Source: a virus. From it: a stretch of 59,230 nt of DNA. Position numbers and translations under genes: made by a program. Where the stretch lies: the IMG/VR virus record IMGVR_UViG_3300005939_000010, positions 1 through 59,230 of that record. The stretch is one strand, 5' to 3'. The first letter of the stretch is position 1, and each line of letters starts with the position of its first letter. Positions 18,252-48,348 of the stretch are shown here, piece after piece. Under the pieces are notes generated by a model. It was not told the origin of the DNA, did no database searches, and worked only from the letters and a program-made list of their open reading frames with translations.

Positions 18252-18286
18252 CGACGACAACCGTGCCAACAGGCCTGACTGAATGC

Positions 18287-18313
18287 GAGCCCTGGGGACC
18301 CTCTCCTGGGCTC
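18287..18313 (+). terminator. Possible terminator hairpin after the tail block
   Basis: GAGCCC (18287-18292) pairs with GGGCTC (18308-18313), with a few additional inner pairs, downstream of the tail-tip stop. Only a broken T stretch follows, so termination strength is doubtful. It lies just upstream of the small membrane protein gene. Confidence 0.35.
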
Positions 18314-18339
18314 TCATTCGTTCTGGGCTATAATAGTAC

Positions 18340-18627
18340 ATGGCTGACAACGAGACTACCAACAAGCATGTCCTCCTCTCCGACGAAGAGATCAGCGCTC
18401 TCGTTTCCGACGCGGTTCAGCGAGGCGTTCATGAAGGCCTCCTCCGGGTTGGCATTGACACCACCGATCCGATCCAGCTTCAGCGGGACTTCCAATTTGT
18501 CCGCGATCTCCGCAAGACTGCCGACTCAATCAAGTCAAGGGCCCTCCTCACCGCAGTCGGTATAATCGTTGTTGGTACTATAACCATTGCATGGCTTGGT
18601 ATCCGTACAATCTTTAAGACCCCGTAA
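18340..18627 (+). CDS. Small membrane protein (DUF6127-like), holin-like candidate
   Basis: 95 residues. The N-terminal 65 residues are soluble and charged (LSDEEISALVSDAVQRGVHE, DFQFVRDLRKTADSIKSR). One membrane helix follows at about 68-90 (LLTAVGIIVVGTITIAWLGI) with a short cytoplasmic tail. The layout resembles DUF6127-type phage membrane proteins. Standing alone between tail block and repeat array A, it could be a holin-like protein, but no lysis partner is next to it. A TATAAT at 18329-18334 lies only five bases before the ATG. Confidence 0.6.
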   Translation: MADNETTNKHVLLSDEEISALVSDAVQRGVHEGLLRVGIDTTDPIQLQRDFQFVRDLRKTADSIKSRALLTAVGIIVVGTITIAWLGIRTIFKTP

Positions 18628-27823: not shown

Positions 27824-29617
27824 ATGTCGCAATACGGACCAACCCTGCCATTTTCTGAAGAGCTTCACGCCGAGAAGTATCGCGGCAAGGGTGAGACCTT
27901 CAAGGAGGCAACGAACCGGATAGCTGGAACACTGGAAGATAGCGAAGGGCACTTTAGGGCCTTTCGTGATGCTCTCCTTAATATGCGATTCATGCCTGGT
28001 GGTCGCATTCAAAACGCCATTGGCTCCACCAAGAACTGCACGGCCTACAACTGCTATGTGGCCGGCAAGATAGCCGACTCCTTTGTAGCAGGTGACGGCG
28101 CCATCATGCAGATAGCCTCTGAGGCCGCAGCTACTATGCGAATGGGTGGTGGGATTGGCTACGATTTCTCAACGCTGCGTCCGTGCGGCGACACTATCAA
28201 GAAGCTCCAGTCGCAGTCCTCAGGACCTATCTCCTTCATGGAAATCTTTGACGCGATCTGTAGATGCATTGCCTCCTCCGGCCATAGGCGAGGGGCACAG
28301 ATGGGAATCATGCGTATTGATCATCCCGACATCGAAGACTTCATCAGGTCAAAGCAACCGCCGAAGGCAGCTCAGCCGATCATGGAGCAACTGGCCAAAC
28401 ACCGGCATGGGACGCCGGAGTGGCTCGCTTGGTACCAGGCTCTTCAGGCGGTGTTCCAACTCACAGGGTTCAACATCTCAGTCGCCGTAACGGACGAGTT
28501 CATGAAGGCGCTTGAAGCCAATAGCGAATTCCCTCTAAGGTTCAATGACAAGGTGTATCGAACAACGAACGCGACGGCACTGTGGGACATGCTGATGCGG
28601 TCCACCTGGGATTGGGCCGAGCCGGGAGTCATCTTCATCGACACTATCAACCGGATGAACAACCTGTGGTATTGCGAGGAGATCATCGCGACGAATCCCT
28701 GCGGTGAGCAGCCACTGCCGGCGCACGGTGCCTGCCTCCTGGGCTCTTTCAACCTGACGCAGTACATCGTTCGGTCCCTGGGCCAGACTCGGCCATACTT
28801 TGACTTTGGTGAGTTGATAGAGGATATTCCACACGTGGTTCGGGCAATGGATAACGTGATCGATAAATCCACCTATCCCCTTCCCCAGCAGGAACAGGAA
28901 GCGAAGAGCAAGCGCCGGATGGGGCTGGGTGTTACTGGCCTGGCGAACGCTTTGGAAGTCTTGGGAATGCCTTACGGCTCTGATAGTTTCCAGCGAATGG
29001 AAATGCGAATCCTCATGACCATCGCAAATGAGGTCTACCGTGCATCGGCTCTCCTTGCCCAGGAGAAAGGAGCTTTCCCGTTATATGACCGGAAGTACTT
29101 ATCCTCCCCGTTCATCCAACTCCTCAACGATGACGTGAAGGCTTTGATCAGGCAACATGGGATCCGCAACAGCCACCTCACCTCCATAGCACCTACCGGC
29201 ACCATCTCCCTGTGTGCTGACAATGTGTCGTCCGGTATTGAGCCGGTCTTTTCGTATAGCCAACGGCGAACCGTCAACATGCCGTCCGGCCAGGTAGAGA
29301 CTGACTTCGATGACTACGGCAAGCGCGTGTTCGGTGTTAGGGGTAAGCGATGCCAGGACGTCACCATCGTGGAGCATCTTGATGTGCTGGAAATTGCGAC
29401 TCGCTGTGTAGACTCCGCCGTGAGTAAGACCTGCAACGTACCAGCCGACACACCATGGTCAGACTTCAAGGCCCTCTACGTTGAAGCATGGAATCGCGGC
29501 TGCAAGGGCATCACGACCTTTCAGGTAGGCGGTAAGAGAGCCGGGATTATCAAGTCCACGGATGACGCTGCGGCCTGCAAGATCGATCTACAGACGGGAC
29601 GTAAAGAGTGCGAGTGA
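27824..29617 (+). CDS. nrdJ: Class II (cobalamin-dependent) ribonucleotide reductase
   Basis: 597 residues; TAGGAG upstream. It reduces ribonucleotides to deoxyribonucleotides using adenosylcobalamin. Visible signatures: N-terminal KNCTAYNCYV (redox Cys), NPCGEQPLPAHGACLLGSFN (active-site Cys and Glu), RRMGLGVTGLAN, SIAPTGTISL, KTCNVP, and a C-terminal Cys pair for thioredoxin exchange. No small subunit or activase gene is nearby, in keeping with class II. It feeds the large nucleotide pool needed for this genome. The host must supply or import B12. Confidence 0.93.
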   Translation: MSQYGPTLPFSEELHAEKYRGKGETFKEATNRIAGTLEDSEGHFRAFRDALLNMRFMPGGRIQNAIGSTKNCTAYNCYVAGKIADSFVAGDGAIMQIASEAAATMRMGGGIGYDFSTLRPCGDTIKKLQSQSSGPISFMEIFDAICRCIASSGHRRGAQMGIMRIDHPDIEDFIRSKQPPKAAQPIMEQLAKHRHGTPEWLAWYQALQAVFQLTGFNISVAVTDEFMKALEANSEFPLRFNDKVYRTTNATALWDMLMRSTWDWAEPGVIFIDTINRMNNLWYCEEIIATNPCGEQPLPAHGACLLGSFNLTQYIVRSLGQTRPYFDFGELIEDIPHVVRAMDNVIDKSTYPLPQQEQEAKSKRRMGLGVTGLANALEVLGMPYGSDSFQRMEMRILMTIANEVYRASALLAQEKGAFPLYDRKYLSSPFIQLLNDDVKALIRQHGIRNSHLTSIAPTGTISLCADNVSSGIEPVFSYSQRRTVNMPSGQVETDFDDYGKRVFGVRGKRCQDVTIVEHLDVLEIATRCVDSAVSKTCNVPADTPWSDFKALYVEAWNRGCKGITTFQVGGKRAGIIKSTDDAAACKIDLQTGRKECE

Positions 29618-29661: not shown

Positions 29662-30546
29662 ATGATTGAATACGACTTACAGGAAGAGCAGATTAAGGAG
29701 TACTTCGCCACAGCACAGGAGCGATACTCCATAATGTTGCGGAGGCGTGATGGGTCACCGAAGCCATGGTCGGATGATCAGGTCTTCAGGAACTGGCGGT
29801 TCTGTAATGTATTCCGCGAGGACGATAAGGTCACTGAGTGGATACGGAAGAACGTTCGGGAGCCTTTGCAGAACAACCCCAAGGTCATCACCGCGATGGC
29901 GGCATGCCGTATCTTCAATCGGATAGCAACCCTTGAGAGATTGGACAAGGCCCATCTCTTTATTGACTGGAACGCGGCTGAGTGCCGTAGGGTAATGGCC
30001 GGTGTCACGCCGGTTGTGGGTGCGGCATACGTCGTCAAAACGCCAGACGGTATGGATAAGCTCAACGGCTGTATTGAGATGGTTGATGCGTTTCAGCGGG
30101 ATGCCGCTAATGTGCTAACACATCTGGCAAGCCACCAACGTGGTCCTCTTTCCCTTGAACAGGTCTGGACAATTTTACAGCGTTTCCCTTGTATTGGCCC
30201 GTTCATGGCCTATGAGATAGTTTCAGACTTACGACACACCTACCTACTCAAGGACGCATGGGATGTATGTCGTTGGGCATGCCCTGGTCCCGGCGCTGCG
30301 AGAGGTCTGTCCTGGATTCATGCTAGGAATATGACGGCAGTTCCGTACGGCGGTAAGAAGGCGTCGGCCGCAGCCATCAAGGCCATGCGGATTTTGCTTC
30401 TTCACTCAACAGCGAAATCGCTGTGGCCGGCAGATTGGCCTCGGTGGGAGATGCGTGAGGTGGAGCATTGGCTCTGTGAGTACGCCAAGTATGCCAAGGT
30501 CAAGCACCTAAGAAAAACCATGAAAGTTAGATATCAAGGAGCGTAG
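29662..30546 (+). CDS. Alpha-glutamyl/putrescinyl thymine pyrophosphorylase-like DNA hypermodification enzyme
   Basis: 294 residues. The N-terminus (YSIMLRRRDG, PWSDDQVFRNWRFCNVFRED, KVTEWIRKNV) and the helix-hairpin-helix-like core (FPCIGPFMAYEIVSDLRHTY) match the AGPT-Pplase clade. These glycosylase-fold proteins are proposed to replace a pyrophosphate on 5-hydroxymethyluracil in DNA with an amino acid or polyamine. The neighbours (glycosyltransferase-like, thymidylate-synthase-family, HD and Nudix genes) support a base-hypermodification pathway. The chemistry here is inference from family and context. Confidence 0.75.
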   Translation: MIEYDLQEEQIKEYFATAQERYSIMLRRRDGSPKPWSDDQVFRNWRFCNVFREDDKVTEWIRKNVREPLQNNPKVITAMAACRIFNRIATLERLDKAHLFIDWNAAECRRVMAGVTPVVGAAYVVKTPDGMDKLNGCIEMVDAFQRDAANVLTHLASHQRGPLSLEQVWTILQRFPCIGPFMAYEIVSDLRHTYLLKDAWDVCRWACPGPGAARGLSWIHARNMTAVPYGGKKASAAAIKAMRILLLHSTAKSLWPADWPRWEMREVEHWLCEYAKYAKVKHLRKTMKVRYQGA

Positions 30547-30548
30547 GT

Positions 30549-31346
30549 ATGAAGATCTGGATACCAACCCGTTCACGACACCTAGTCTTCACGCAGGCAG
30601 GCCGCACGCTGGCACAGCTCATCAAGGTTCCCGAGCTCGTGGATAAGGTGGTCGTCGTCTGTCCCCTTGAGCAATTTGCCTCTTATGCCAACAGGATGCC
30701 CTCTGGTGTTCGCCTCTCAAGCTGCCCCGTCAGCGGCATCACCAACGTCCGCCAGTGGATCGGCCAGGTTGCAAAGGACGAGGGTGACGAGCACTTCTGT
30801 ATGATGGATGATGACCTCGGGTTCCTGATCCGCAAGGACCACCCGGATTGGCACCTGTTTGGTCAGGAACCTCAGCAGACCCTGGATATGGTCAACTACA
30901 TTGAGACGCTGCTGAAGCAGGGCTACGGCGCGGTCGGTGTTTCGGCTCGCGAAGGGCAGAACCGACTGGAAGATTGCCCGACTGACAACACGCGGCTGAT
31001 CCGCGTCCTCGCCTTCAACACGGAAGCCTTCCTGGGCTGTGAGCACGGTCGGGTAGAAGTGATGGAGGACTTTGACATCCTGCTCCAACTCCTTCGTAAG
31101 GGCCTGCCCAACTGTGTCACGGTGAGGTATGCCCAGGGGCAACGACAGACGCAGGAGGCCGGAGGTTGCAGCGACTACCGTTCGCATGCGGTTCATGAGG
31201 CTGCGGCTGAGAAGCTGGCTGAACTGCACGCGCCGTATGTCCGGACCCGGGAGAAGAAGAATAAGTCTGGTGGAGAATTTGGGACACGCAAGGAAGTCAC
31301 AATCGCATGGAAGAGAGCCTATGGCTCGAGTCTGAACGATGCCTAG
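30549..31346 (+). CDS. TET-associated-type glycosyltransferase, probable DNA base-modifying
   Basis: 265 residues, two bases after the preceding gene. It begins MKIWIPTRSRHLVFTQ, has VRQWIGQ (68-74) and a DDD metal/sugar-nucleotide motif in FCMMDDDLGF (83-92), followed by AREGQNR and VMEDFDILLQLLRKG. This order fits the TAGT family of GT-A enzymes that decorate modified pyrimidines in phage DNA. It may add sugar to 5-hydroxymethyluracil or to its amino derivative. It could also be a nucleotide-level enzyme. Position directly behind the pyrophosphorylase-like gene argues for joint action. Confidence 0.65.
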   Translation: MKIWIPTRSRHLVFTQAGRTLAQLIKVPELVDKVVVVCPLEQFASYANRMPSGVRLSSCPVSGITNVRQWIGQVAKDEGDEHFCMMDDDLGFLIRKDHPDWHLFGQEPQQTLDMVNYIETLLKQGYGAVGVSAREGQNRLEDCPTDNTRLIRVLAFNTEAFLGCEHGRVEVMEDFDILLQLLRKGLPNCVTVRYAQGQRQTQEAGGCSDYRSHAVHEAAAEKLAELHAPYVRTREKKNKSGGEFGTRKEVTIAWKRAYGSSLNDA

Positions 31347-31665
31347 GATCCGCCCATCCCACCGTCTGGAGCAGATCACCGACAACCTGGTAACCCTTCG
31401 GCTATTGGCAGGACTGAAGGAAACGCCAGAAGGCTGCTTTGTCTGGCAACGGCACAAAGATCGTCACGGCTACGGCCAAATGTGGTACAATGGTAGAAGC
31501 CACTGGGTGCACCGCCTGTCCTACGCCATCTTCAAGGGCGATATTGAGGAGGGCCTGACAATAGACCACCTATGTCGAAACCGTGCCTGCTGCAACCCAG
31601 AGCATCTTGAGGCAGTTACGCAAAGCGAGAACTCATTAAGGAGATGGCAGTCATGCACGTCATAG
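31339..31665 (+). CDS. Free-standing HNH endonuclease
   Basis: 108 residues. WQRHKDRHGYGQMWYNGR, HRLSYAIFKG, then LTIDHLCRNRACCNPEHLEA is the HNH_3 pattern of phage homing-type nucleases (catalytic His in DHLC, zinc-binding Cys, second His in NPEHL). The start lies 8 bases inside the glycosyltransferase gene and the end overlaps the thymidylate-synthase-family gene. It therefore appears wedged between two modification genes, as homing endonucleases often are. Confidence 0.85.
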   Translation: MPRIRPSHRLEQITDNLVTLRLLAGLKETPEGCFVWQRHKDRHGYGQMWYNGRSHWVHRLSYAIFKGDIEEGLTIDHLCRNRACCNPEHLEAVTQSENSLRRWQSCTS

Positions 31666-32672
31666 AAACGAGAAACGTCCACGAGGCCTTGCCGGAGGTC
31701 ATGCGTTATTTGCAGGAGCATGGTGAAGGCCGCGAGAGTAGGAACGGACCAGTGCTCAAAGCGCCGGGACCTGTGACTATTGTTTACGAACGGCCTACCG
31801 AGCGCGTCATGTTCTGGCCACAGAGGGATGCGAATCCCTTCTTCCACTTGCTTGAGGCCATGTGGATGTTGTGTGGTCGGAATGACGTTGCATTCCCGGC
31901 GTCCATAATAGGCACCATGCGAAACTTCTCCGACAATGGTGTCACCTACAATGGGGCTTACGGCCATCGGTGGCGGAGCCATTTTGGCTATGACCAACTC
32001 AGTACTATTGCGTCGGCTCTGAGAGAGAATCCCGACTGCCGACGGCAAGTCCTAACAATGTGGGACCCCTGGCTTGATCTCGGTCTCGAATCGAAAGACC
32101 TCCCGTGCAACACGCAGGCCTACTTCTCAATCAGTGGTGGTGTGTTGAATATGATGGTGACAAATCGATCCAACGATGCGGTCTGGGGAGCCCTCGGTGC
32201 CAACGCTGTGCACTTCTCTGTACTCCTTGAGTACATGGCCGCAAAAATTGGTGTGCCGGTCGGGACCTACTGGCAGGTAACAAACAACCTGCATCTCTAT
32301 CTCGACAATCACCGAGACTTGATGGAGGAGATGGCTAAGAAGGCATGGCCGTCCACCCAGTCCGAAAGCCCTTATCTGATGGAAGTTGTCAAGACCACCC
32401 CACTGATTCCCCGAGGTGACGTCCACCGTTTTGAGCAGGACCTGGGTGTCCTCCTGGACGACGGTCTTCTCCTGGGCATGACGGACCCCTTCATTCGCAA
32501 GGTGGCTGCTCCGATGCTAATGGCTCTCCGAGCCTATAAGGCCAACGAGGCCCCTGAGAAGTTCGATGCGGCGAGGGGAATTCTCCTCAAGGGTATGGAC
32601 CAAGACGGCGACTGGGCCGCGGCCTCGCTGGACTGGATAAACAGACGTGAGCGTAAGTGGAGGAGTAAGTGA
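31653..32672 (+). CDS. Thymidylate-synthase-family enzyme, possible dUMP hydroxymethylase
   Basis: 339 residues from ATG 31653 (AAGGAG about 10 bases upstream; ATG 31644 is too close to it). It has the family features CRRQVLTMWDP (129-139), catalytic Cys in LPCNTQAYF (Cys152), NRSNDAVWGALGANAVHFS (171-189, Asp175, Asn184) and QVTNNLHLYL. The Asp-to-Asn spacing is one residue longer than in standard thymidylate synthase. With a hypermodification cluster around it, the enzyme may transfer a hydroxymethyl group and make 5-hydroxymethyl-dUMP. Which product it makes cannot be read from sequence. Confidence 0.75.
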   Translation: MHVIETRNVHEALPEVMRYLQEHGEGRESRNGPVLKAPGPVTIVYERPTERVMFWPQRDANPFFHLLEAMWMLCGRNDVAFPASIIGTMRNFSDNGVTYNGAYGHRWRSHFGYDQLSTIASALRENPDCRRQVLTMWDPWLDLGLESKDLPCNTQAYFSISGGVLNMMVTNRSNDAVWGALGANAVHFSVLLEYMAAKIGVPVGTYWQVTNNLHLYLDNHRDLMEEMAKKAWPSTQSESPYLMEVVKTTPLIPRGDVHRFEQDLGVLLDDGLLLGMTDPFIRKVAAPMLMALRAYKANEAPEKFDAARGILLKGMDQDGDWAAASLDWINRRERKWRSK

Positions 32673-33208
32673 TGTCTCTAGAGCCCAGAGTGATCCAGCG
32701 GATCCGCCAGCGCCGGGAAGGCGGGCATACGACGCGGTGTCATACGGTTCCGCATATTGGGACCTACGACGTCGCCCAGCACTCCTGGCATGCGGCTGTA
32801 CTCCTATCGGAGCTACATCCCGGCGCCTCTAAGGAACTACTCCTCCATGTCCTGCTGCACGACGTACAGGAACGATGGACCGGCGATGCTCCGGCCTTTG
32901 CTAAGTGGGCCTTCAAGGATGTGGGCGCAGCCTTATGGAAGGCTGAGGAGAAGGTCTCCAAGGCGATCGGTGTCTGCAACACACTTACTCCCTACGAGGC
33001 CGAGTGGGCCAAAGCCGTCGATGTCCTGGAGCTCTGGATGTGGTGTCTAGACCAGGAGGCCATCGGGAACTGTGGTAATGTGGGCAACCTGAAAGTGAAT
33101 ATCAGCCGGTGGGCTTCAGAGCACCGCGAGAAGCTGCCGATGCCAGCATGGCACTTCTTCAAACAGTATGGATGGCAACGTGAAAGCGATATTCTGGAGG
33201 TATCATGA
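32672..33208 (+). CDS. HD-domain phosphohydrolase (YfbR-like 5'-nucleotidase)
   Basis: 178 residues from ATG 32672, one base overlap with the previous stop. HTVPHIGTYDVAQHSWH gives the first metal His; LLLHVLLHDVQE (57-68) holds the HD pair (His63-Asp64); a later VDVLELWMW supplies the last Asp. It resembles dNMP 5'-nucleotidases of the YfbR type. In phages with modified bases such enzymes can destroy the normal competing nucleotide (for example dTMP); that role is inferred here. Confidence 0.8.
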   Translation: MSLEPRVIQRIRQRREGGHTTRCHTVPHIGTYDVAQHSWHAAVLLSELHPGASKELLLHVLLHDVQERWTGDAPAFAKWAFKDVGAALWKAEEKVSKAIGVCNTLTPYEAEWAKAVDVLELWMWCLDQEAIGNCGNVGNLKVNISRWASEHREKLPMPAWHFFKQYGWQRESDILEVS

Positions 33209-33741
33209 AGCATGATCTAGACACAGCACACCTGGAGCATATCACGCCGGTATGCGACGAGGACAAGGCCGGTCTCAACAAGGCCGAGGCCCAGTACAAG
33301 GGCAGTTGGAAACGGCGCGGTGGCATTGGGGCCTATATGATGCTCTGTCGTAAGTGGGACCGCATCGAGAATGCAATTGAGAGTGATAGCGGCGTCACCA
33401 TGTACGGTAAGAAGGTCTCTCTTCGCCATGCTCTTGCCATGCTGACAGCAAAGCTGGAGCAGTGTGGGTCCAGCGATCTTGGCTCTCAGAATATCGGCCA
33501 AATCTTGGACGTGCTCCAGGGTGTTCAGGGCGACCACCGTTTTGACATCTTCGCCAAAATCGCATCCGACGATCGACCTGAAGGGCTGATTGACGACATC
33601 CGCGACCTCCGCCGGTATCTGGTTCTCGTTGAGGCCGAGATGAGGGCACGCGGCAGCAAGGGTGCTGTATCGACGCATCGCGACAACGTTGTTCAGACAA
33701 CGGTTCTTCCGGAAGCACCTAGTGATGGAGGCGCAAAATGA
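33205..33741 (+). CDS. Conserved phage protein, unknown
   Basis: 178 residues, ATGA overlap. The segment AEAQYKGSWKRRGGIGAYMM followed by LCRKWDRIEN is a pattern found in nucleotide-metabolism neighbourhoods of many phages, with no confirmed activity. Helical throughout; the C-terminus is a basic/Ser-rich tail. It lies inside the modification-replication operon. Confidence 0.65.
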   Translation: MKHDLDTAHLEHITPVCDEDKAGLNKAEAQYKGSWKRRGGIGAYMMLCRKWDRIENAIESDSGVTMYGKKVSLRHALAMLTAKLEQCGSSDLGSQNIGQILDVLQGVQGDHRFDIFAKIASDDRPEGLIDDIRDLRRYLVLVEAEMRARGSKGAVSTHRDNVVQTTVLPEAPSDGGAK

Positions 33742-34019
33742 GTAGAGACAAGACAGACGCTGAGAACTTCATGGAGTTGCAGAAGGCCGTGGTCGCTGCA
33801 ACACGGAAGGCGATTGAGGAGAACGCGGTCGACCTACCAGTCGCAATGCTGGCACAGTACATGCACTCAATCGGCGGTTTCTTCCATGAAGAGGGCTATG
33901 GCACGTCGGGTCCGAAGCACGAGTATCCCTTCAGGCTTCGCGTACAATCAACAATCCGACCGAATATCGAGTCGGCCTCGAAAGTTCGGGTGGTTGAGCA
34001 AGTGTTGGGGTGGGGATAA
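33738..34019 (+). CDS. Hypothetical protein
   Basis: 93 residues, ATGA overlap with the upstream gene and one-base overlap with the Nudix gene. Acidic N-terminal helix followed by a mixed region. No family recognised. Confidence 0.6.
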   Translation: MSRDKTDAENFMELQKAVVAATRKAIEENAVDLPVAMLAQYMHSIGGFFHEEGYGTSGPKHEYPFRLRVQSTIRPNIESASKVRVVEQVLGWG

Positions 34020-34534
34020 TGGAACCCGTTAGAGACATGATCTCAAGGCCAAGGCGTAGGGATCAGATTCGTGAGTATGTGGTCGGGCTGATGTTTGATG
34101 AGGCGATGCAGAAGGTCGTACTCATCAAGAAAGAGCACGGTCCGAAGTGCGTTGTCGGTTTCTGGAACGGGGTCGGTGGTCACGTTGAGCCAGGTGAGGT
34201 CCCGATTGACGCTATGGTCCGGGAATACCGTGAAGAGGCTGGGGTGTTGACTACTCCTTCCGATTGGATGCTGTTCACCGAACTGGACGGAGGGCCGGAG
34301 TTGGAGTCACCTGAGTTCAGGGTGTCCTTCTACTGGGGACGGCGCCAGAGTGCTGTCTCCCGTGCTCGAACCATGACGGACGAACGCGTCGGGACTTTCT
34401 GGGTCGCCGACATCGCTGAAAATCTGCGTGATGAAATCGTCCCGAACCTTTCATGGATGATCCCCTTCCTTAAAGACCCTGGCACCACCAACTACATTCC
34501 GGCGCTTTGCTGCACCTATGAGGATAGCAAATGA
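34019..34534 (+). CDS. Nudix hydrolase
   Basis: 171 residues from ATG 34019. A perfect Nudix box occurs at residues 54-76 (Gly54, Glu60, Arg68-Glu69, Glu72-Glu73, Gly75), the metal site for cleaving nucleoside diphosphate-X bonds. The C-terminal half is beta-rich. Within this operon it may clear or prepare modified (d)NTPs; substrate unknown. It overlaps the DNA polymerase start (ATGA). Confidence 0.92.
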   Translation: MEPVRDMISRPRRRDQIREYVVGLMFDEAMQKVVLIKKEHGPKCVVGFWNGVGGHVEPGEVPIDAMVREYREEAGVLTTPSDWMLFTELDGGPELESPEFRVSFYWGRRQSAVSRARTMTDERVGTFWVADIAENLRDEIVPNLSWMIPFLKDPGTTNYIPALCCTYEDSK

Positions 34535-36510
34535 TACAGCAACCTCTCTTCCAACCTGATGTCGACTGGAAGCCTCCGAAGATCAGCGACCTTCCCTCCT
34601 GGGCAGATGCCCGGAGGGTTTCGGTCGACTGTGAAACGAGGGACGACCACATCAAGAAGCTCGGCCCAGGAGTGCGACGGGGAGGCTACATTTGCGGCTA
34701 CTCCTTTGCGATCGAGGACGGACCCAGCCACTATGTTCCCTTGCGTCATGAGGGTGGCGGCAACGTCCCAAACCCTCAGGCCGCGCTTCAGTATCTCCGT
34801 GACCAGTCTAAGGTCTTCAAGGGCTCGATCTGCGGTGCCGGCTTGCAGTATGACCTTGACTACTTCGCGGAGCAGGACATAATCTTCCGGGAGGCCGAGT
34901 GGTTCCGTGATGTGCAGATAGCCGAGCCACTTCTTGATGAGCTACAGATGTCCTACTCCTTGGAGAATATTGCCAAAAGGCGCGGCATCCCTGGGAAGGA
35001 CGAGGGTGGCCTCTTTGATGTCGGCAGCCTGATGGGTATTAAGAGGAAGGATATCAAAGGCACTATCTGGAGAATGCCAGCACAGCACGTTGCGGCCTAC
35101 GGCATCCAAGATGCGGAGCTGCCTCTACAGCTGCTCCGGCGCCAGGAACGTGAGATCGACGAGGAAAACCTATGGGATATCTACAACCTTGAGTCTAAGC
35201 TGCTGCCCGTTCTGGTGAAGGTCCGGCGACGCGGTGTGCGTGTCAATTTTGACCAACTGGATAAGGTGGCGAAGTGGTCCCTTGTCGAAGAAGGCAAGGC
35301 CCTCGAAGAGGTATACACGCGGACCCTGGTTCGGGTAGCCGTCGGAGATGTCTGGAAGGTCAATGCCCTCGTGCCTGTCCTGCAGAGCATAGGTGTTACG
35401 GTCCCAATGACGGTTCCCAAAGGCAAGTCCAAGCCAAAAGAATCCGTCAGCAACGACTGGCTGAAATCACTGAATCATCCTGTGGCCATAGCCCTCTACA
35501 GGGCACGCAAGATCAACAAGCTCCGGACAACCTTCGCAAACTCCGTACGAGAGCACGCGGTAGGTGACCGGATACATTGCACGCTCAACCAACTACGTAG
35601 GACCGACGACGAGACTGGAGACGACAAGGGAGCTCGTTATGGCCGACTCTCCTGCACCTTACCCAACCTTCAGCAACAGCCGTCCAGGGACGACCCTAAG
35701 CATGACCTATACATCGCCAAGCGTTGGCGGTCGATCTACGTCCCGGACGAGGGCGGCCTCTGGGCCTGCGATGACTATTCCCAGCAGGAACCTCGGTGGT
35801 TGGTCCACTACGCTGAGCACTGCCACTTGAACCCGAAGCTCCCGAAGTTCAACTTCCCTTCGGCCAGTGTAGCTGCGGCCAAATACCGCGACGATCCAAA
35901 TACCGACAACCACACGATGATGGCCCGTATCGTCTACGACCTCGGCGACAACGAGCAGCCGACCAAGGACCAGAGGACCGCAGCAAAGATCATCTACCTG
36001 GGCCTCTGCTATGGTATGGGTGGCGGCAAGCTCGCGAGGTCTCTGGGCCTACCCACCATCTGGAAGGATAAGTGGAACGGTATAGGTAAGTATGAGGCCG
36101 CAGGCCAGGAAGCCCAGGCGGTGCTGGACCTATTCAACACCAGAGCTCCGTTCATCAGAGGCATGGCGAAGGAATGCGAGAGGCGTGCCAAGCGCCGTGG
36201 CTTTATCAAAACCGTTCTGGGTCGGCATTGCCGGTTCCCGAAGAAAACGAACGGTGGCTGGGACTGGTGCCACAAAGGGCTGAACCGTTTGATCCAAGGT
36301 TCCTCCGGCGACCAGACTAAGAAAGCCATGGTCGACGCCGACGCGGCTGGCTACCGCGTGCAGTTGCAGGTGCATGATGAGCTCGACCTGACAGTTGAAA
36401 ATCGTGGCGTGGCAGAGGGATTGGCAATAATAATGCGTGAGTGTGTAACGGCCAACGTCCCATTCAAGGTGGACGTGGAAATTGGGCCCTCTTGGGGCGA
36501 AATCAAGTAG
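34531..36510 (+). CDS. polA: DNA polymerase I, family A
   Basis: 659 residues; replicates phage DNA. The 3'-5' exonuclease domain starts with SVDCET (Asp33, Glu35) and continues to about residue 205, including the YGIQDAELP motif. Polymerase motifs: A, DDYSQQEPR (414-422); B, Arg482, Lys486, Leu490, Tyr494 in the O helix (AAKIIYLGLCYGMG); C, VHDEL (614-618). The residue equivalent to E. coli Phe762 is Leu490. No 5'-3' exonuclease domain is present. Start is ATGA-coupled to the Nudix gene. Confidence 0.96.
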   Translation: MIQQPLFQPDVDWKPPKISDLPSWADARRVSVDCETRDDHIKKLGPGVRRGGYICGYSFAIEDGPSHYVPLRHEGGGNVPNPQAALQYLRDQSKVFKGSICGAGLQYDLDYFAEQDIIFREAEWFRDVQIAEPLLDELQMSYSLENIAKRRGIPGKDEGGLFDVGSLMGIKRKDIKGTIWRMPAQHVAAYGIQDAELPLQLLRRQEREIDEENLWDIYNLESKLLPVLVKVRRRGVRVNFDQLDKVAKWSLVEEGKALEEVYTRTLVRVAVGDVWKVNALVPVLQSIGVTVPMTVPKGKSKPKESVSNDWLKSLNHPVAIALYRARKINKLRTTFANSVREHAVGDRIHCTLNQLRRTDDETGDDKGARYGRLSCTLPNLQQQPSRDDPKHDLYIAKRWRSIYVPDEGGLWACDDYSQQEPRWLVHYAEHCHLNPKLPKFNFPSASVAAAKYRDDPNTDNHTMMARIVYDLGDNEQPTKDQRTAAKIIYLGLCYGMGGGKLARSLGLPTIWKDKWNGIGKYEAAGQEAQAVLDLFNTRAPFIRGMAKECERRAKRRGFIKTVLGRHCRFPKKTNGGWDWCHKGLNRLIQGSSGDQTKKAMVDADAAGYRVQLQVHDELDLTVENRGVAEGLAIIMRECVTANVPFKVDVEIGPSWGEIK

Positions 36511-37860: not shown

Positions 37861-37965
37861 ATGGATAGACTACTTGTCGGCATCTGTGGTTGCGTGATGT
37901 GGTGGGCTTGGTTTAAGATCCACCTGTGGTATCTGAAATTCTTTTATCCAGGGAGAAAGAAATGA
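37861..37965 (+). CDS. 34-residue membrane peptide
   Basis: ATG one base after the previous stop, ending within the ATGA overlap with the membrane-kinase gene. It encodes MDRLLVGICGCVMWWAWFKI followed by an aromatic and basic end, one likely membrane segment. Weak ribosome-binding site, so supported mainly by tight packing and hydrophobicity. Confidence 0.45.
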   Translation: MDRLLVGICGCVMWWAWFKIHLWYLKFFYPGRKK

Positions 37966-38834
37966 ATGCGTATGTGGTGGCATCAATTACCCTGCTGATC
38001 TTGGCGTTCATACAGAACATCTCGTTCAGCATCGTAAGCCGGTCGCGGAACCGTAACAACATGAGGTTCCACTTGATCGCGGCTTTCTTCAGCAACTCCA
38101 TCTGGTTCCTGACCTTCCGCCATCTGATCAAGGCCGATATGAGCCTCTACCTGTTTCCGTGGTACTGTGTCGGTACGATGCTCGGCTCGGTCTTCGGGGT
38201 GCGAATCTCAATGCTGATCGAGAAGTGGCTCGGCGCTGAGGCGGACTCCCATGTGAAGAAGGTCGACACCGGCAAGCTGAACGAGCGCGTTACTCGCATC
38301 GAAAAGTTCATGCAGATCCAGCGAAGGGACTTTGATGTCGACAAGAAACCAACCATTAAGACAAGAGACCGCCTCCCTGGGAAGCCTTCCGTCTACGTGA
38401 CGGTCGGCTTCTCGCGGTGCGGGAAGACCACCTGGGCCAATCGCCACCGGAAGAATCTGGACGCGACCATTGTCTGCGGCGACGATATCCGTCGTGCTCT
38501 GGGCGACAAGGAGTTTAACTATGCCAGGGAGCCGGTTGTCAATATGGTGCTGTCTCTTGCTGTGAGGGCGCTGGTACTCCGTGGCCAGAACGTGATCGTT
38601 AAGGCAACGAGCCTCCGTAGGGGCGACCGTGCCCAGTGGGTGCGGCTGTCCGAGGATGGGTTGGCTACGGTGAATTGGATTCACTTCGAGAGACCACCTA
38701 TGAAGGAGTGGCAGGCCAGGTGCGTTCAGGCGAATTTTGATTGGCGTATAATAGAACACCAGATAAGAATCTTCGAGGGCCTGGACGCTCTCGAGATCGA
38801 AAACATAGGTGTCATCGATGGGAGTAGGGGATGA
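37962..38834 (+). CDS. Membrane-anchored P-loop kinase (polynucleotide kinase-like)
   Basis: 290 residues from ATG 37962 with GGGAGAAAG upstream. Residues 3-90 contain about three hydrophobic helices (YVVASITLLILAFIQNISF, a second at about 37-53, a third at about 61-85), then a charged linker. Residues 143-290 form an AAA_33/PNK-type domain: Walker A GFSRCGKT (149-156), VCGDDIRRAL (171-180), and KATSLRRGDRAQW (214-226), where PNKs have DATN. The substrate could be an RNA or DNA 5' end, or 5-hydroxymethyluracil in DNA. The fused membrane part is unusual. Confidence 0.75.
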   Translation: MNAYVVASITLLILAFIQNISFSIVSRSRNRNNMRFHLIAAFFSNSIWFLTFRHLIKADMSLYLFPWYCVGTMLGSVFGVRISMLIEKWLGAEADSHVKKVDTGKLNERVTRIEKFMQIQRRDFDVDKKPTIKTRDRLPGKPSVYVTVGFSRCGKTTWANRHRKNLDATIVCGDDIRRALGDKEFNYAREPVVNMVLSLAVRALVLRGQNVIVKATSLRRGDRAQWVRLSEDGLATVNWIHFERPPMKEWQARCVQANFDWRIIEHQIRIFEGLDALEIENIGVIDGSRG

Positions 38835-39214
38835 AAGGCGTAGTCAACTACAATTACTACACAGCTCTGCTGTTTGATCGTCGGCCCGATCTACATATGA
38901 CGGTCCAGTACTACTGCAACTTGACGCCGAGGAAGCTCGGCCAACTCATCGTGAACGTAAACGATCTGATCACAGACTCTGATCTACGACAATTTAAGAT
39001 CAAGCTCGACATTGAGGACTTCTTTGGACCGAAGCATACCGTAAGGGTGCTCCGCCCACATGAGCTGCTGGCACCACCGTGGCTTCTGGCAATTAGTAAA
39101 GAAAACTGGTCTCCGCACATTAGCTGTAAGGACAACGCCTTGATGGTGAAGGCCGACACCTTGGTTATCATGACAAAGAGAAGGGAGATTGTACGGTGGA
39201 ACCTGCTGAAGTAA
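38831..39214 (+). CDS. Probable 2H phosphoesterase (LigT-like)
   Basis: 127 residues, ATGA-coupled to the kinase gene. Two His-x-Thr/Ser motifs are spaced as in 2H enzymes: LHMTVQYY (His22, Thr24) and WSPHISC (His96, Ser98), each next to a beta strand. The family opens cyclic phosphates and 2'-5' bonds. Members include RNA-repair enzymes and the phage protein Acb1, which destroys cyclic-nucleotide signals of CBASS immunity. The protein is short for the fold. Which substrate applies here is unknown. Confidence 0.6.
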   Translation: MKGVVNYNYYTALLFDRRPDLHMTVQYYCNLTPRKLGQLIVNVNDLITDSDLRQFKIKLDIEDFFGPKHTVRVLRPHELLAPPWLLAISKENWSPHISCKDNALMVKADTLVIMTKRREIVRWNLLK

Positions 39215-39690
39215 GAGAGCAAGACCTCGGACTATTACGACGCGCCCTTGGTGTGTCCACTGTGTCCCCTGACCCAACTACCAAGGTCGGTGCGGTTCTG
39301 GCTAACACGGAAGGGATTGTCATAGCTACCGGCTTCAATAGGTTCCCGCGCGGGATCACTCCTGATGCACGGCTGAACGATCGGCCCTTGAAGAATGAGA
39401 TGGTAATCCACGCGGAACCAAATGTGATTCTCCAAGGGCTTGAATTGATCAGCAAGGTTGGTATGTATTTTTGCACGCTGTATATAACAACGTTGCCGTG
39501 TGCCCGTTGCACCGGGATCATCTTGGATGCCAACATTGGCAGCGTTGTGTGCCTGGAACCTACTGCGGAATTCCTTACTCGTTGGAAGGATTCCGTTGAA
39601 CTGTCCCGTAGTCTCTTCGAGGAGGCCGGGGTGCAACTGAAAGAGTATTCACTTGAGGAGCTAGACAGAGATGGCAAAGAGCAGATTTGA
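39196..39690 (+). CDS. dcd: dCMP deaminase
   Basis: 164 residues from GTG 39196 with AAGGGAG 8 bases upstream. It has the zinc-dependent deaminase motifs HAE (72-74) and PCARC (101-105), and an N-terminal phage dCMP-deaminase pattern (SPDPTTKVGAVLANTEGIVI, GFNRFPRGI). It converts dCMP to dUMP, the substrate of the thymidylate-synthase-family enzyme in the same operon. This supports supply of (hydroxymethyl)uracil nucleotides. The symbol reflects function; phage naming varies. Confidence 0.92.
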   Translation: MEPAEVREQDLGLLRRALGVSTVSPDPTTKVGAVLANTEGIVIATGFNRFPRGITPDARLNDRPLKNEMVIHAEPNVILQGLELISKVGMYFCTLYITTLPCARCTGIILDANIGSVVCLEPTAEFLTRWKDSVELSRSLFEEAGVQLKEYSLEELDRDGKEQI

Positions 39691-43903: not shown

Positions 43904-44108
43904 GAAACGAAAAGAAGTCGTCGTTGAGAAGAACGGTCTCAAGCTGGTTTTCTGGAAGGAAAGTAGGGACGAAGTGAATGTAGACGTCTACCGTGGTGAG
44001 GAGAAGATTATGGAATGGGCCTTTCCCCTACTCCCAGGCTTCAAGAGTCTCCAAGCAGCGGCAGATCTCTGGACAGACCAGGCGATTATTCAGGCGAGGG
44101 ATGTTTGA
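43896..44108 (+). CDS. Small hypothetical protein, GTG start
   Basis: 70 residues, GTG start overlapping the upstream gene by 8 bases, and a one-base overlap (TGATG) with the methyltransferase gene. Basic N-terminus, beta strands, then a helix. No family recognised. Confidence 0.55.
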   Translation: MAKKRKEVVVEKNGLKLVFWKESRDEVNVDVYRGEEKIMEWAFPLLPGFKSLQAAADLWTDQAIIQARDV

Positions 44109-44884
44109 TGGCTGCGACCAAGATCATCAACTACAAGTGGACCACAGAGATGCGGCCTAACGATCTGGCCCCGATCTGGCCCTTCGTCAACGAACCGGTC
44201 GACCTGATCTTCGCTGATCCGCCTTATAACTACGGCGTCAAGTATAAGGACGACGAGACGAGGGACAAGCTCCCGCCAGAGGAGTATCGTGCCTTGGTAG
44301 AGGCCACCCTGTTCAAGCTGTCCAAAATGGTCAAGCCGGGAGGCACGCTCTGGTGGTTGTGTCCCGCTGAGGCAGGTGATTGGGTCTGGCAAGCTATCCA
44401 CAAATATGGATGGCTCCTCTACGGTAAGCCGATCATCTGGTACGAGCGCTTCAGTCAATACCAGCAGAAGAGACTGACGTCGGACTACCGGCTACTGTTC
44501 CCACTCATCGGCGGTGGCCAAACCAAGGCGACAACCTTCAACCCGGACGACATTCGCGTCAAGTCGGTCCGCCAGCTGATGGGTGATCCTCGTGCCAACC
44601 CCGACGGTCGCGTCCCTGGGCATTTATGGGTCGTCTCTCGTCTCCAAGGCAACGCGGCGGCTCGGGTTGACTGGCACACGGCTCAGCTGGGTCCCGGACC
44701 ACTGGAGACCATCGTACAAGGCTGGACGAACCCAGGCGACACCGTCCTCGACGCCTTCGCTGGCTCTGGTTCCCTGGGCGTGGTGTGTAAAGCCCTGGGT
44801 CGCGATTTCGTAGGTATTGACGGCTCGGCCACCTACTGCAAACTGATGAGGCAACGACTGAAGGAGGCGCCAAGTGCTAAGTAA
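44108..44884 (+). CDS. DNA methyltransferase (N6-adenine or N4-cytosine, beta class)
   Basis: 258 residues from ATG 44108. Motif IV DPPY (37-40) comes first and motif I VLDAFAGSGSLG (C-terminal, Asp215) second, the beta-class order. The target-recognition region lies between. It probably methylates phage DNA for protection from restriction or to mark replication. No restriction gene accompanies it. The recognition sequence is unknown. A GTG-started sigma factor gene overlaps its end. Confidence 0.9.
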   Translation: MAATKIINYKWTTEMRPNDLAPIWPFVNEPVDLIFADPPYNYGVKYKDDETRDKLPPEEYRALVEATLFKLSKMVKPGGTLWWLCPAEAGDWVWQAIHKYGWLLYGKPIIWYERFSQYQQKRLTSDYRLLFPLIGGGQTKATTFNPDDIRVKSVRQLMGDPRANPDGRVPGHLWVVSRLQGNAAARVDWHTAQLGPGPLETIVQGWTNPGDTVLDAFAGSGSLGVVCKALGRDFVGIDGSATYCKLMRQRLKEAPSAK

Positions 44885-45593
44885 CACCCAACTGCTCCTG
44901 ACCGGCGCTACCAATAGACTATCAGTCGCTGATGAACAAAGCCTGTTCCGTAGGCTGGTGGCGGCTCGCCGTACTATCGATGCTCTTGAGGCCAAGAAGA
45001 GGCGAATAGCCCAGGAGTCGTCGCAGCTTGGGATCGCACGTCAACAATGGACTGTAGTTCGCAACCAGCTGTCAACGGCCAACCTACCTATCGTGGTCCG
45101 GATGTCACAGAAGTATACGTCTGGTGCCATAACGCAGGAGCAGCTGATATCGGAAGGGCTGGTTGGTCTGTTGCGGTGCATCGACCGGTTTGACCCGGAT
45201 CGGGGATTCAAATTCTCGACCTACCTATGCCGGTCACTGATCAACATCTTCTGCCGGTTCATTGCCAAGCAGCGCCGGCACACCGTTGGTAGAGTGGACG
45301 ATGACGAAAACTACATCAGAGAAACCGAGTCGGCGGAGAGGTTCGACTGTGACGAAGTGGTTGACCTTGTCCACGCCCTGGACACCAACCGAGCCGAGCT
45401 GGATGAAGTTGAGATGGCTGTCGTTCGGTTGTTCTATGGGATCGGGACAAAGGGCGGACCCAAGACCATGCATGAGATTCACCTGATCGTCGGCCTTACC
45501 AAGGGCCGCATCCAACAAATTCACAGCGAGGCTGTGGAGAAGCTGAGACACCTGTTCACTATCTATATGGAGCCAAGCTATGAGACTGAGTGA
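44874..45593 (+). CDS. Phage-encoded sigma-70-family RNA polymerase sigma factor
   Basis: 239 residues from GTG 44874 with AAGGAGG 6 bases upstream. Region 2 is clear: ANLPIVVRMSQKY, QLISEGLVGLLRCIDRFDPD, RGFKFSTYLCRSLIN (residues about 66-137). Region 4 has a helix-turn-helix at about 198-222 (MHEIHLIVGLTKGRIQQIHS). Region 1.1 is absent and a coiled linker (30-60) leads in. It should redirect host RNA polymerase to phage promoters, probably middle or late. The late-boundary promoters are candidate targets. Confidence 0.9.
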   Translation: MLSNTQLLLTGATNRLSVADEQSLFRRLVAARRTIDALEAKKRRIAQESSQLGIARQQWTVVRNQLSTANLPIVVRMSQKYTSGAITQEQLISEGLVGLLRCIDRFDPDRGFKFSTYLCRSLINIFCRFIAKQRRHTVGRVDDDENYIRETESAERFDCDEVVDLVHALDTNRAELDEVEMAVVRLFYGIGTKGGPKTMHEIHLIVGLTKGRIQQIHSEAVEKLRHLFTIYMEPSYETE

Positions 45594-46211: not shown

Positions 46212-47632
46212 GCAACATCCTAATACAGAACAAGGGTGAGCTACCTCTATGGGGCATGCGCCTTCTGGGCCTCTCGAACAAGAACGCGGACCAGATCGGG
46301 CAGTTTGGTACAGGCCTCAAGGAAAGCATCGCTCTCCTGGCGCGGCTGGAGCAGTTGCCGGTCATATTCTCCGGAGACCTGCGAATCGACTTCAAGGTGC
46401 TTGAACGGGACGACCAGCAGGAGATCTGCTTCCACCTGTCTCAGCCCAGAGGAGACTGGGAGGCGTGGAAATGGCACGGGATGGGGATGCATCCTGACTT
46501 CGGTAAGGCCGACTGGAACGATGCGTGGATGATATTCCGCGAGATCATCTGTAATGCCTTGGATGAGTCGGGCGTGGATGATCTCCATCACGACGTGACA
46601 TCGTCGACTCTGGAAGGTGTACCAGGGGCGACCCGAGTATACATCCCTGTCACACCGAAGATCCTGGAGGCCTACACGAAGATCCATGATCGGCTCCTAC
46701 TCCTGTCTGACGTGGCCACCGTGCGGCCGGTGTACCGGGCCCGCATCCTCGCGAAGAAGGCCAACCACCCAGGGCTGCAAGTCTTTCACCGTGGCGTCTG
46801 GATTCAGGAAAGCACTGTGCCGTCCCTCTATGACTACGAGATCGGCGACCTCAAGCTGAATGAGTCTAGGTCGGCCGATTGGTATGACGTCAATAGCAAG
46901 ATAGCCCGTGTGGTGTCCGCCTTTGGCGTAGAAGAGGCCAAGGTGTTGATTGCCCGCATGCTGATTGATAAAGATGCACCCTCCGATGGTGACTGCTGCC
47001 TACCAGATGAGGAGTCCGACAGACCCCACTTCTCGGATCGTGCAAAGTGCTACGAGGAGAAGTGTCTTGCAGCCTGCAGCCACTATACCACCGTGTCAGA
47101 AGGTGAGGCGTGGCGGGAGGCCTTCTCGGCCTTGTTCGGGAACAACGCGGTCATGTGTACGAACGACAAATTCTACTATGACCGGCTGAATGATCTTGGT
47201 AGAAAGCCAGTTATCGTAGAGCATGACGGCCTCCGGTCGTTGCTGAAGGCAGCCGGAGTACCGTTTATGAGTCAGATCCTCACGGAGGAGCAGCAGGCCT
47301 ACGAAGAGCTCCGCGAACCGGACGATGGGGAGAGGGCAGTGTTCGGCCAGGTGTGGGACTTATTCTCTGGCGCCGGAATGACGCAGGGTAAGGCCAAGCC
47401 GGGGCATATGATGTTCCGTCAGCGGCCTGGCAAAGCCGAGGCCGTCTTCGGTGAGTATCGCAAGGGCATTTGCTACATCAACATCGACTATGTCGGCTCC
47501 GCACAGGAGCGAAGGGCCTGCATCGAAGAAATCGCCCACCACCTGTCTGGAGCGATGGACCACAGCAAGGAGTTTCAGCACTACCTCCTTGAGCTGGCCG
47601 ACGCCTTCATGCTAAGAAAGGAAGTCGTATGA
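46208..47632 (+). CDS. GHKL-ATPase-like protein with degenerate metalloprotease-like C-terminus
   Basis: 474 residues from ATG 46208. Near the N-terminus IGQFGTGLKESIALLARL (30-47) looks like the G2 motif of GHKL ATPases (Hsp90, gyrase, histidine kinases). FREIICNALDES (110-121) resembles their N box (Glu112, Asn116, Asp119). The order of these motifs is reversed compared with known GHKL proteins. Near the C-terminus CIEEIAHHLSGAMDHS (438-453) looks like an HExxHH protease site with the first His replaced by Glu440. Function unknown; a chaperone-like or signalling role is possible. Confidence 0.55.
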   Translation: MSNILIQNKGELPLWGMRLLGLSNKNADQIGQFGTGLKESIALLARLEQLPVIFSGDLRIDFKVLERDDQQEICFHLSQPRGDWEAWKWHGMGMHPDFGKADWNDAWMIFREIICNALDESGVDDLHHDVTSSTLEGVPGATRVYIPVTPKILEAYTKIHDRLLLLSDVATVRPVYRARILAKKANHPGLQVFHRGVWIQESTVPSLYDYEIGDLKLNESRSADWYDVNSKIARVVSAFGVEEAKVLIARMLIDKDAPSDGDCCLPDEESDRPHFSDRAKCYEEKCLAACSHYTTVSEGEAWREAFSALFGNNAVMCTNDKFYYDRLNDLGRKPVIVEHDGLRSLLKAAGVPFMSQILTEEQQAYEELREPDDGERAVFGQVWDLFSGAGMTQGKAKPGHMMFRQRPGKAEAVFGEYRKGICYINIDYVGSAQERRACIEEIAHHLSGAMDHSKEFQHYLLELADAFMLRKEVV

Positions 47633-48348
47633 GCATTCGAATCTGTGGCCTATGTAAACGCTACGGAAGCTGTGAGCATCCGGAGAAAGGTTTGGACGTT
47701 GTCGTTCCAAGTTGCCACCTCTTCCGAGACGCTGACACCGGCGACCGCGTGTGCCTCAACTGCGTCAAGTTCAAAGGTAATGGCGCTGGCGGCACCTGTA
47801 GCGGAACGAGGGAGTATGTACAGTATTGTCGATCCTATGAACCTACCCACGGACACCGAGGTATTCCTCAGGGGCGAGTTGATTGCGGTGTCCCGAATAT
47901 GGTGAAGGGTCCGGCAGAATGGCCGAGGCACATCGGCCGTGACCGCCTTGATCTGCTGTTTGCTGAGCAGGCCAAGTTGAACAAGAGAGCCGGTTTTGAC
48001 GTGGAGGAAGTATTCTCAGAACCAGGGAAGATCGACCTCTTATTCGCTGGCCACTGGACCAACGCCTTTGCGACTGCGATGCAGAGTGAACTCTGCGAGC
48101 TCCGCGACTGCACCTACTGGAAGCATTGGTATGCTGAGGCGCGTGAGGGGCGCCAGTACGAAATCTCCGATCTTGAGCACGCCAAGGTTGAGGTTATTGA
48201 CCTCCTGTTCTTCTGGATAAGTCTATGCCAGACCCTGGGCATGGGGCCGGAGGATGTGTACCGTATCTACCATGCCAAGTTGGCGAAGAACCACGCTCGC
48301 CAGGACGATGACTGCACGAGTGAGCAAGCGAAAGGCTACGACATATGA
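47629..48348 (+). CDS. Dimeric (all-alpha) dUTPase with Cys-rich N-terminal extension
   Basis: 239 residues, ATGA overlap. The C-terminal domain (from about 105) has the ExxE and ExxD metal motifs of dimeric dUTPases: SELCEL (Glu154, Glu157) and KVEVIDLLF (Glu188, Asp191), plus a final HARQDDDC tail. It removes dUTP and yields dUMP, feeding the thymidylate-synthase-family enzyme. Residues 5-67 have at least seven cysteines (CGLCKRYGSCEH, CLNC, CSGT...YCRSYEP), an added zinc-binding module not usual in this enzyme. Confidence 0.82.
   Translation: MSIRICGLCKRYGSCEHPEKGLDVVVPSCHLFRDADTGDRVCLNCVKFKGNGAGGTCSGTREYVQYCRSYEPTHGHRGIPQGRVDCGVPNMVKGPAEWPRHIGRDRLDLLFAEQAKLNKRAGFDVEEVFSEPGKIDLLFAGHWTNAFATAMQSELCELRDCTYWKHWYAEAREGRQYEISDLEHAKVEVIDLLFFWISLCQTLGMGPEDVYRIYHAKLAKNHARQDDDCTSEQAKGYDI

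Follow-up and report, generated by a model that had tools for sequence, protein, structure and literature searches.

A candidate glycosyl-hydroxymethyluracil locus in an uncultured virus and the exchange of tailoring enzymes beside PF18723 proteins

The virus contig IMGVR_UViG_3300005939_000010 of the IMG/VR database, the whole of which (59,230 bases) constitutes the window analysed here, carries a run of genes between a ribonucleotide reductase (RNR) and a DNA polymerase in which a TAGT-type glycosyltransferase stands beside enzymes of thymine hypermodification, and the question raised by this locus is which modified base such a combination might build. A preliminary description, made from the sequence alone, had proposed a thymine hypermodification cluster in which a pyrophosphorylase and a glycosyltransferase would act together. 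It was found that three linked genes form the core of the locus, namely hel (PF18723, HMUDK_hel), TAGT and a thymidylate-synthase-family enzyme, that dozens of uncultured viruses and one cultured phage (Brevibacterium phage LuckyBarnes) carry the same set, and that the kinase found with hel in other phages is almost always missing beside TAGT. These observations support a locus built on hydroxymethyluracil (hmU) in which a glycosyltransferase replaces the known chemistry; on balance it is probable that hmU is made, incorporated into DNA and glycosylated by TAGT, with hel as the presenting partner.

Linkage of hel, TAGT and synthase, and exchange of the partner enzyme

The hel gene (29662..30546, + strand, 294 amino acids) was assigned to PF18723 (Pfam, 1.5e-39; phrog_2396, 2e-51), its AlphaFold model has a pLDDT of 96.3, and it is the ortholog of gp55 of phage M6 (which itself matches PF18723) and of the homologous gp50 of phage PaMx11. 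The gene which follows (30549..31346, + strand, 265 amino acids) had been described as TAGT-like, and this was borne out: the protein matches PF20691 (4.5e-16; 59.8 bits against a cut-off of 27.5), carries an MDDD motif, keeps the invariant Asp triplet D87-D89 and D174, and is modelled (pLDDT 93.4) with a GT-A fold, for which the best PDB match was AvpGT (solved with Ara-A) and the next TarP. The third gene (31644..32672, + strand) encodes the thymidylate-synthase-family enzyme, a predicted dUMP hydroxymethylase (PF00303 Thymidylat_synt, 4.6e-19; phrog_5131, 4e-123). Linkage of the three was seen in dozens of diverse contigs, and all three are under purifying selection relative to the nearest diverged relative, L008 (pN/pS 0.21-0.26); because the linkage recurs and the genes are so maintained, the set is more than a chance assembly.

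Sequences of hel and TAGT were used as queries against IMG/VR and GTDB genomes, giving approximately 350 loci which were annotated by profiles built in this study. Each scan covered the best 80 of more than 550 relatives, and the hel tree (194 rows) is a quick tree without a mixture model, so that all partner counts are indicative. Among the 210 distinct hel loci obtained with hel as query, the partner encoded within 9 kb was a P-loop hmU kinase in 98, TAGT in 56, a GT-B glycosyltransferase in approximately 20 and a class I S-adenosylmethionine (SAM) methyltransferase in 12. Kinase and TAGT were never found together (0/210), and an amino acid:DNA transferase (ADDT) was present near hel in 60 of the 98 kinase loci compared to none of the 56 TAGT loci. 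When TAGT was the query, 74 of the 76 loci that could be scored also had hel. Approximately 25 changes of the kinase label and as many of the TAGT label are required by the hel tree (starred branches force 13 and 18 changes, respectively), these switches being repeated also within the window's own clade; in independent pairs differing in the kinase, TAGT differed in the opposite direction in approximately 9 of 13 and never in the same direction (p ~0.004). The exchange is visible in a close relative (L030), which has ADDT and a kinase at the position of the window's TAGT and has kept the flanking RNR, hel, synthase, HD, Nudix and polymerase genes (RNR 73%, hel 49%, synthase 60% and polymerase 65% identical to those of the window).

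The same results bear on the proposal that TAGT modifies the host surface or a protein, the DNA carrying hmU only. GT-A enzymes are versatile, and TarP, which acts on wall teichoic acid, is among the closest folds; however, the linkage of TAGT to the synthase, to hel and to the DNA polymerase is consistent, and a DNA-modifying kinase module takes the place of TAGT in relatives, making this the least probable of the explanations weighed.

Neither component of that module was detected in the window: no 5-hmdU DNA kinase (PF18748, PF18747 or the M6 gp54/PaMx11 gp49 type) was found by Pfam or by our own profile at E<=1, and there was no match to ADDT (PF18724), for which M6, PaMx11, ViI and PhiW-14 were positive. 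The P-loop kinase previously described nearby does exist, although its gene starts at 37926 rather than 37962 and its product resembles polynucleotide kinase: it encodes a membrane segment joined to a polynucleotide-kinase-like P-loop domain (37926..38834, + strand; AAA_33, 9.8e-13; phrog_505, 1.5e-15), a single open reading frame (ORF) in the window, where L008 has the membrane and kinase-like parts in two ORFs (17611-18526). Such a protein might replace the hmU kinase, with TAGT or another enzyme building on phospho-hmU, and its kinase-like domain and its restriction, among profiled loci, to the window's TAGT-bearing clade are in keeping with this. Within the stretch compared, however, it is absent from most contigs bearing TAGT and hel, it lies outside the operon core, and there is no ADDT to use the phosphate. 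It showed no match to the 5-hmdU kinase families, and was rejected as the hmU kinase; its replacing that enzyme is quite improbable, and a part for it in DNA modification is doubtful. The P-loop kinases of M6 (gp54, L003:6686-7249, a match to the 5-hmdU DNA kinase family PF18748) and PaMx11 (gp49, L002:9218-9787) are labelled 'terminase small subunit' in public records.

Acceptor base and role of the PF18723 protein

The synthase of the window is 49-53% identical to the enzymes of M6 and PaMx11 and 50-54% identical to those of its nearest cultured relatives, which are mostly Pseudomonas phages of the Mesyanzhinovviridae. When 241 synthases linked to hel, that of the window included, were aligned, all of them had Asn in the column of E. 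coli N177 together with the catalytic Cys, irrespective of whether the partner is a kinase, TAGT, GT-B or methyltransferase. Use of cytosine by T4 dCMP hydroxymethylase depends on Asp179 (PMC6400193), which is offset by one column from the N177 position in this alignment; the window synthase has Asn instead of this Asp. As all hel-linked synthases keep Asn and not the T4-type Asp, the acceptor is most likely hmU. Genes indicating a dUMP substrate, which had been pointed out in the preliminary description, were also confirmed in the form of a dCMP deaminase (39196..39690, + strand; PF00383, 5.7e-16) and a dUTPase of the PF08761 type (47629..48348, + strand; dUTPase_2, 4.6e-8).

It could be argued instead that TAGT acts on hydroxymethylcytosine (hmC) as in T6 and that the neighbourhood is coincidental, since the T-even TAGT places glucose onto glucosylated hmC (PMC13216743) and LuckyBarnes was announced with a dCMP hydroxymethylase (PMC6588365). 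The uracil-type Asn is nevertheless present in every synthase linked to both hel and TAGT, including gp41 of LuckyBarnes, the deaminase and dUTPase point to dUMP, and the T6 TAGT occurs without hel; hmC as the acceptor is thus very improbable.

In the pathway considered probable, dCMP deaminase and dUTPase would supply dUMP, which the enzyme at 31644 would hydroxymethylate to hydroxymethyl-dUMP, and hmU would enter the phage DNA during synthesis in place of thymine. After synthesis, TAGT, proposed here to be an hmU-DNA glycosyltransferase, would glycosylate part of the hmU. Neither sugar-nucleotide genes nor an alpha- or beta-glucosyltransferase (alpha-GT, beta-GT) was recognised among the window genes scanned; given the former result, a host nucleotide sugar, for example UDP-glucose, is our default guess for the donor. 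The product would be glycosyl-hmU, chemically similar to base J, and may serve to block restriction. In this scheme hel, a protein with a possible resemblance to helix-hairpin-helix (HhH) DNA glycosylases, would be the DNA-side partner, recognising or flipping the hmU and making it accessible to the tailoring enzyme, and it may fulfil the same role in relatives with an hmU kinase (followed by ADDT), with a GT-B transferase or with a SAM methyltransferase.

This role for hel is suggested by its distribution and, more weakly, by its predicted fold and the position of one residue. SPO1 makes hmU without further tailoring and T4 and T6 decorate hmC; hel is absent from all three. It is present in ViI, M6, PaMx11 and PhiW-14, and the DNA of ViI, M6 and PhiW-14 carries hypermodified thymine (PMC6449724). 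The presence of hel therefore follows the tailoring of hmU, and not its synthesis or TAGT as such; as hel is found alike with kinases, glycosyltransferases and methyltransferases, it marks hmU tailoring generally rather than pyrophosphorylation. When the AlphaFold model was compared to the PDB, HhH DNA glycosylases made up almost the whole of the top 42 matches (3knt, probability 0.98; best E 0.13, below significance), and D201 follows the G179 hairpin at a distance which, in our own estimation, is similar to that of the catalytic Asp in these enzymes. A core of invariant (100%) residues (R52, D55, F181, D189, D201, G209, G211 and G215) is the same with every partner and is kept in the window's hel, and no partner-specific positions were found by residue comparison across partner types. 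A helper for hmU paired with A is plausible, since hmU in a duplex serves as a substrate for T4 beta-GT only where it is mispaired with G (PMC4111573).

The description of the 29662 protein as AGPT-type was correct to the extent that its family carries the label aGPT-Pplase clade 1 in some phage records; it belongs, however, to PF18723 and is not ADDT, which both M6 and PaMx11 encode separately, close to hel. A pyrophosphorylase working with the glycosyltransferase was not supported, as the window has neither ADDT nor an hmU-DNA kinase and the hel family accompanies all partner types. The PaMx11 glycinyltransferase ranked 18th among the fold matches of hel, and homology of hel and ADDT by profile comparison is no more than suggestive.

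It is also conceivable that hel works on nucleotides, for instance by acting on the hmdUTP/dTTP pool or by assisting the hydroxymethylase, and is kept beside the synthase on that account, with TAGT alone glycosylating hmU in DNA. The synthase is near hel in 189 of the 210 hel loci, the invariant residues are mostly charged (R52, D55, R83, K133, D189, D201, E273 and K276) and could bind nucleotides, and genome MW202897 manages without hel. On the other hand, SPO1 has a dUMP hydroxymethylase and hmU in its DNA but no hel, and the fold is like that of DNA glycosylases, albeit with weak matches. We regard a nucleotide-level function as unlikely, though less so than the other alternatives considered.

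A number of results weigh against hel as the presenting partner of a DNA glycosyltransferase. All fold matches of hel fall short of significance (E >=0.1), comparing its profile with ADDT gave a weak match (E 0.015, probability 3%), and sequence searches revealed no relative of solved structure. No fusion of hel to a partner was present in 171 loci checked, 23 of the 210 hel loci have no identified partner, and a single locus from the TAGT scans (L020) combines kinase and TAGT. In MW202897 a TAGT accompanies a uracil-type synthase but hel is absent, and two further loci (L016 and L018) have TAGT with no hel in reach, from which it follows that hel is not always needed. To our knowledge, no chemistry has been described for any phage with hel and TAGT.

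Glycosylation of hmU with hel as presenting partner nonetheless remains the preferred explanation for the window. It is proposed more tentatively, with somewhat less than even confidence, that PF18723 is a general hmU-DNA presenting protein and not a kinase domain, and that its exchangeable partners (kinase, GT-A, GT-B with FkbM methyltransferase, SAM methyltransferase) imply undescribed viral thymine hypermodifications common in uncultured viruses, among them glycosyl-hmU as a viral base J, with or without O-methylation, and 5-methoxymethyluracil.

Remaining genes of the window and of related loci

The genes from RNR to DNA polymerase all lie head-to-tail on the + strand in the order RNR, hel, TAGT, HNH, synthase, HD, two unknowns, Nudix and DNA polymerase, and from hel to Nudix neighbours overlap or are separated by at most 2 nt. 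The families named in the preliminary description were confirmed by Pfam and PHROGs, and the run is tightly packed; that description had missed an HNH endonuclease of the homing type (31339..31665, + strand; HNH_3, 2.3e-15) between TAGT and synthase, which is not thought to be part of the modification pathway. The HD phosphohydrolase (32669..33208, + strand; YfbR-like; HD_3, 1.7e-5; phrog_6047, 3.5e-43), an ortholog of M6 gp59, is probably a deoxynucleotidase, and the Nudix hydrolase (34010..34534, + strand; NUDIX, 2.7e-10), also carried by kinase-type relatives, probably has a nucleotide-pool function. Upstream the run is anchored by the RNR large subunit (27824..29617, + strand; counterpart in L030 syntenic), named by position and by similarity to the M6/PaMx11 layout, and downstream by the DNA polymerase (34531..36510, + strand; 51-53% identical to M6 gp62 and PaMx11 gp55).

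Elsewhere the window encodes tail, DUF4055, ligase, sigma factor and replication proteins. A major capsid gene was not identified among the window genes, and the contig ends may cut the head module; the stretch from RNR to polymerase, where relatives have their modification genes, is complete. An N6/N4 DNA methyltransferase (44015-44884) suggests further modification, and a sigma-70-like factor (44874-45593) suggests transcription control of its own.

Several related loci have other genes beside hel. A class I SAM methyltransferase lies directly upstream of hel, with neither kinase nor TAGT, in L079 (9186-10022), L093 (9159-9995), L103 (9159-10019) and similar loci, where 5-methoxymethyluracil is a possible product, and an AlkB-like 2-oxoglutarate oxygenase is found near some loci of this type (L092:5974-6558). 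In L073 (10822-13099) and L331 an FkbM methyltransferase and a GT-B lie between hel and synthase, for which glycosyl-hmU, perhaps O-methylated, is predicted. L032 (8763-10861) has a myo-inositol-1-phosphate synthase (8.7e-34) and then an ADDT-like protein (6.8e-5) between hel and kinase, an arrangement which may specify an inositol-derived thymine modification; two similar-sized ORFs occupy the same place in L029 (10926-12994). More elaborate sugar tailoring is indicated by a radical SAM/SPASM protein adjoining TAGT (L027:12105-13058) and by radical SAM and GT61 proteins between hel/FkbM and TAGT (L334:10112-12172). In Acinetobacter phage nACB2 (L360) a Macro-domain protein is encoded directly upstream of hel (4212-4910), with ADDT nearby, and in the hel of phiMAM1 no match to a second domain was found. 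Finally, hel and synthase were found without a known tailoring partner on bacterial contigs of up to 2.7 Mb from Hyphomicrobium and relatives (L336, L337, L339 and L355), just downstream of a RecA gene in L336; either an integrated element or use by the host is proposed.

Comparison with known systems

These families were reportedly first described by Iyer et al. in 2013. What is added here is the hel-TAGT-synthase cassette with its cultured representative, the finding that it is swapped with the kinase-ADDT module, and the other partners. In a 2026 study, 288 of 753 phage genomes encoded solitary TAGT homologs with neither alpha-GT nor beta-GT, to which no function was assigned (PMC13216743); for a group of these, linkage to hel points to hmU as the likely substrate, to hel as a partner and to a cultured phage for testing. 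The role of PF18723, named after the kinase, becomes a direct question now that the family is common to loci without one. Viral glycosyl-hmU, if it exists, would add a new class to the bases of virion DNA, would probably protect against restriction and might yield hmU-specific labelling enzymes.

In LuckyBarnes the synthase (gp41), two TAGTs (gp40 and gp39) and hel (gp38) are encoded side by side, and profile searches of its record gave no kinase and no ADDT. It differs from the window in belonging to another phage lineage, in its second TAGT and in its extended synthase; gp41 (L357:7436-8989) has a C-terminal extension of approximately 270 residues without a Pfam match. As LuckyBarnes is cultured, its DNA is open to direct analysis. 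A second group of cultured actinophages is represented by Microbacterium phage Pikmin (L358), with hel (2.5e-28) and a weakly TAGT-like protein (0.0043) as gp55 and gp45.

The nearest cultured relatives of the window's hel are mostly Pseudomonas phages of the Mesyanzhinovviridae, approximately 40% identical, and M6 (5-NedU) and PaMx11 (5-PmdU glycinyltransferase) have their modification genes in the same place, between RNR and DNA polymerase. The hel, hmdUMP synthase and HD genes are orthologous in the three, the polymerase is kept and a dCMP deaminase is nearby. At this position M6 and PaMx11 have ADDT, further enzymes, the P-loop kinase, hel, synthase and HD, whereas in the window kinase, ADDT and the pyridoxal phosphate (PLP)/radical SAM or FAD oxidase/acetyltransferase enzymes are absent and TAGT is in their place. 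The ADDT of PaMx11 is gp46, the solved 5-PmdU glycinyltransferase (8z2m/8z2n), which moves the amino acid in the known pathway.

The TAGT of T6, a beta-glucosyl-HMC-alpha-glucosyltransferase, is of the same family (PF20691) as that of the window, but its substrate is glucosylated hmC and T6 has no hel, whereas the window combines a uracil-type synthase with hel. Glycosylated hmU in phage has been proposed before, as GlcNAc-hmU in Mycobacteriophage Acadian, according to a passage in PMC4111573. The predicted product falls in the same class as base J of kinetoplastids (beta-glucosyl-hmU), namely hmU bearing a sugar on its hydroxymethyl group; this likeness is one of product class and not of compared glycosyltransferases, and whereas the hmU of base J arises within DNA by TET/JBP oxidation of thymine, that of the window would be synthesised at the nucleotide level, as hmdUMP, and incorporated afterwards.

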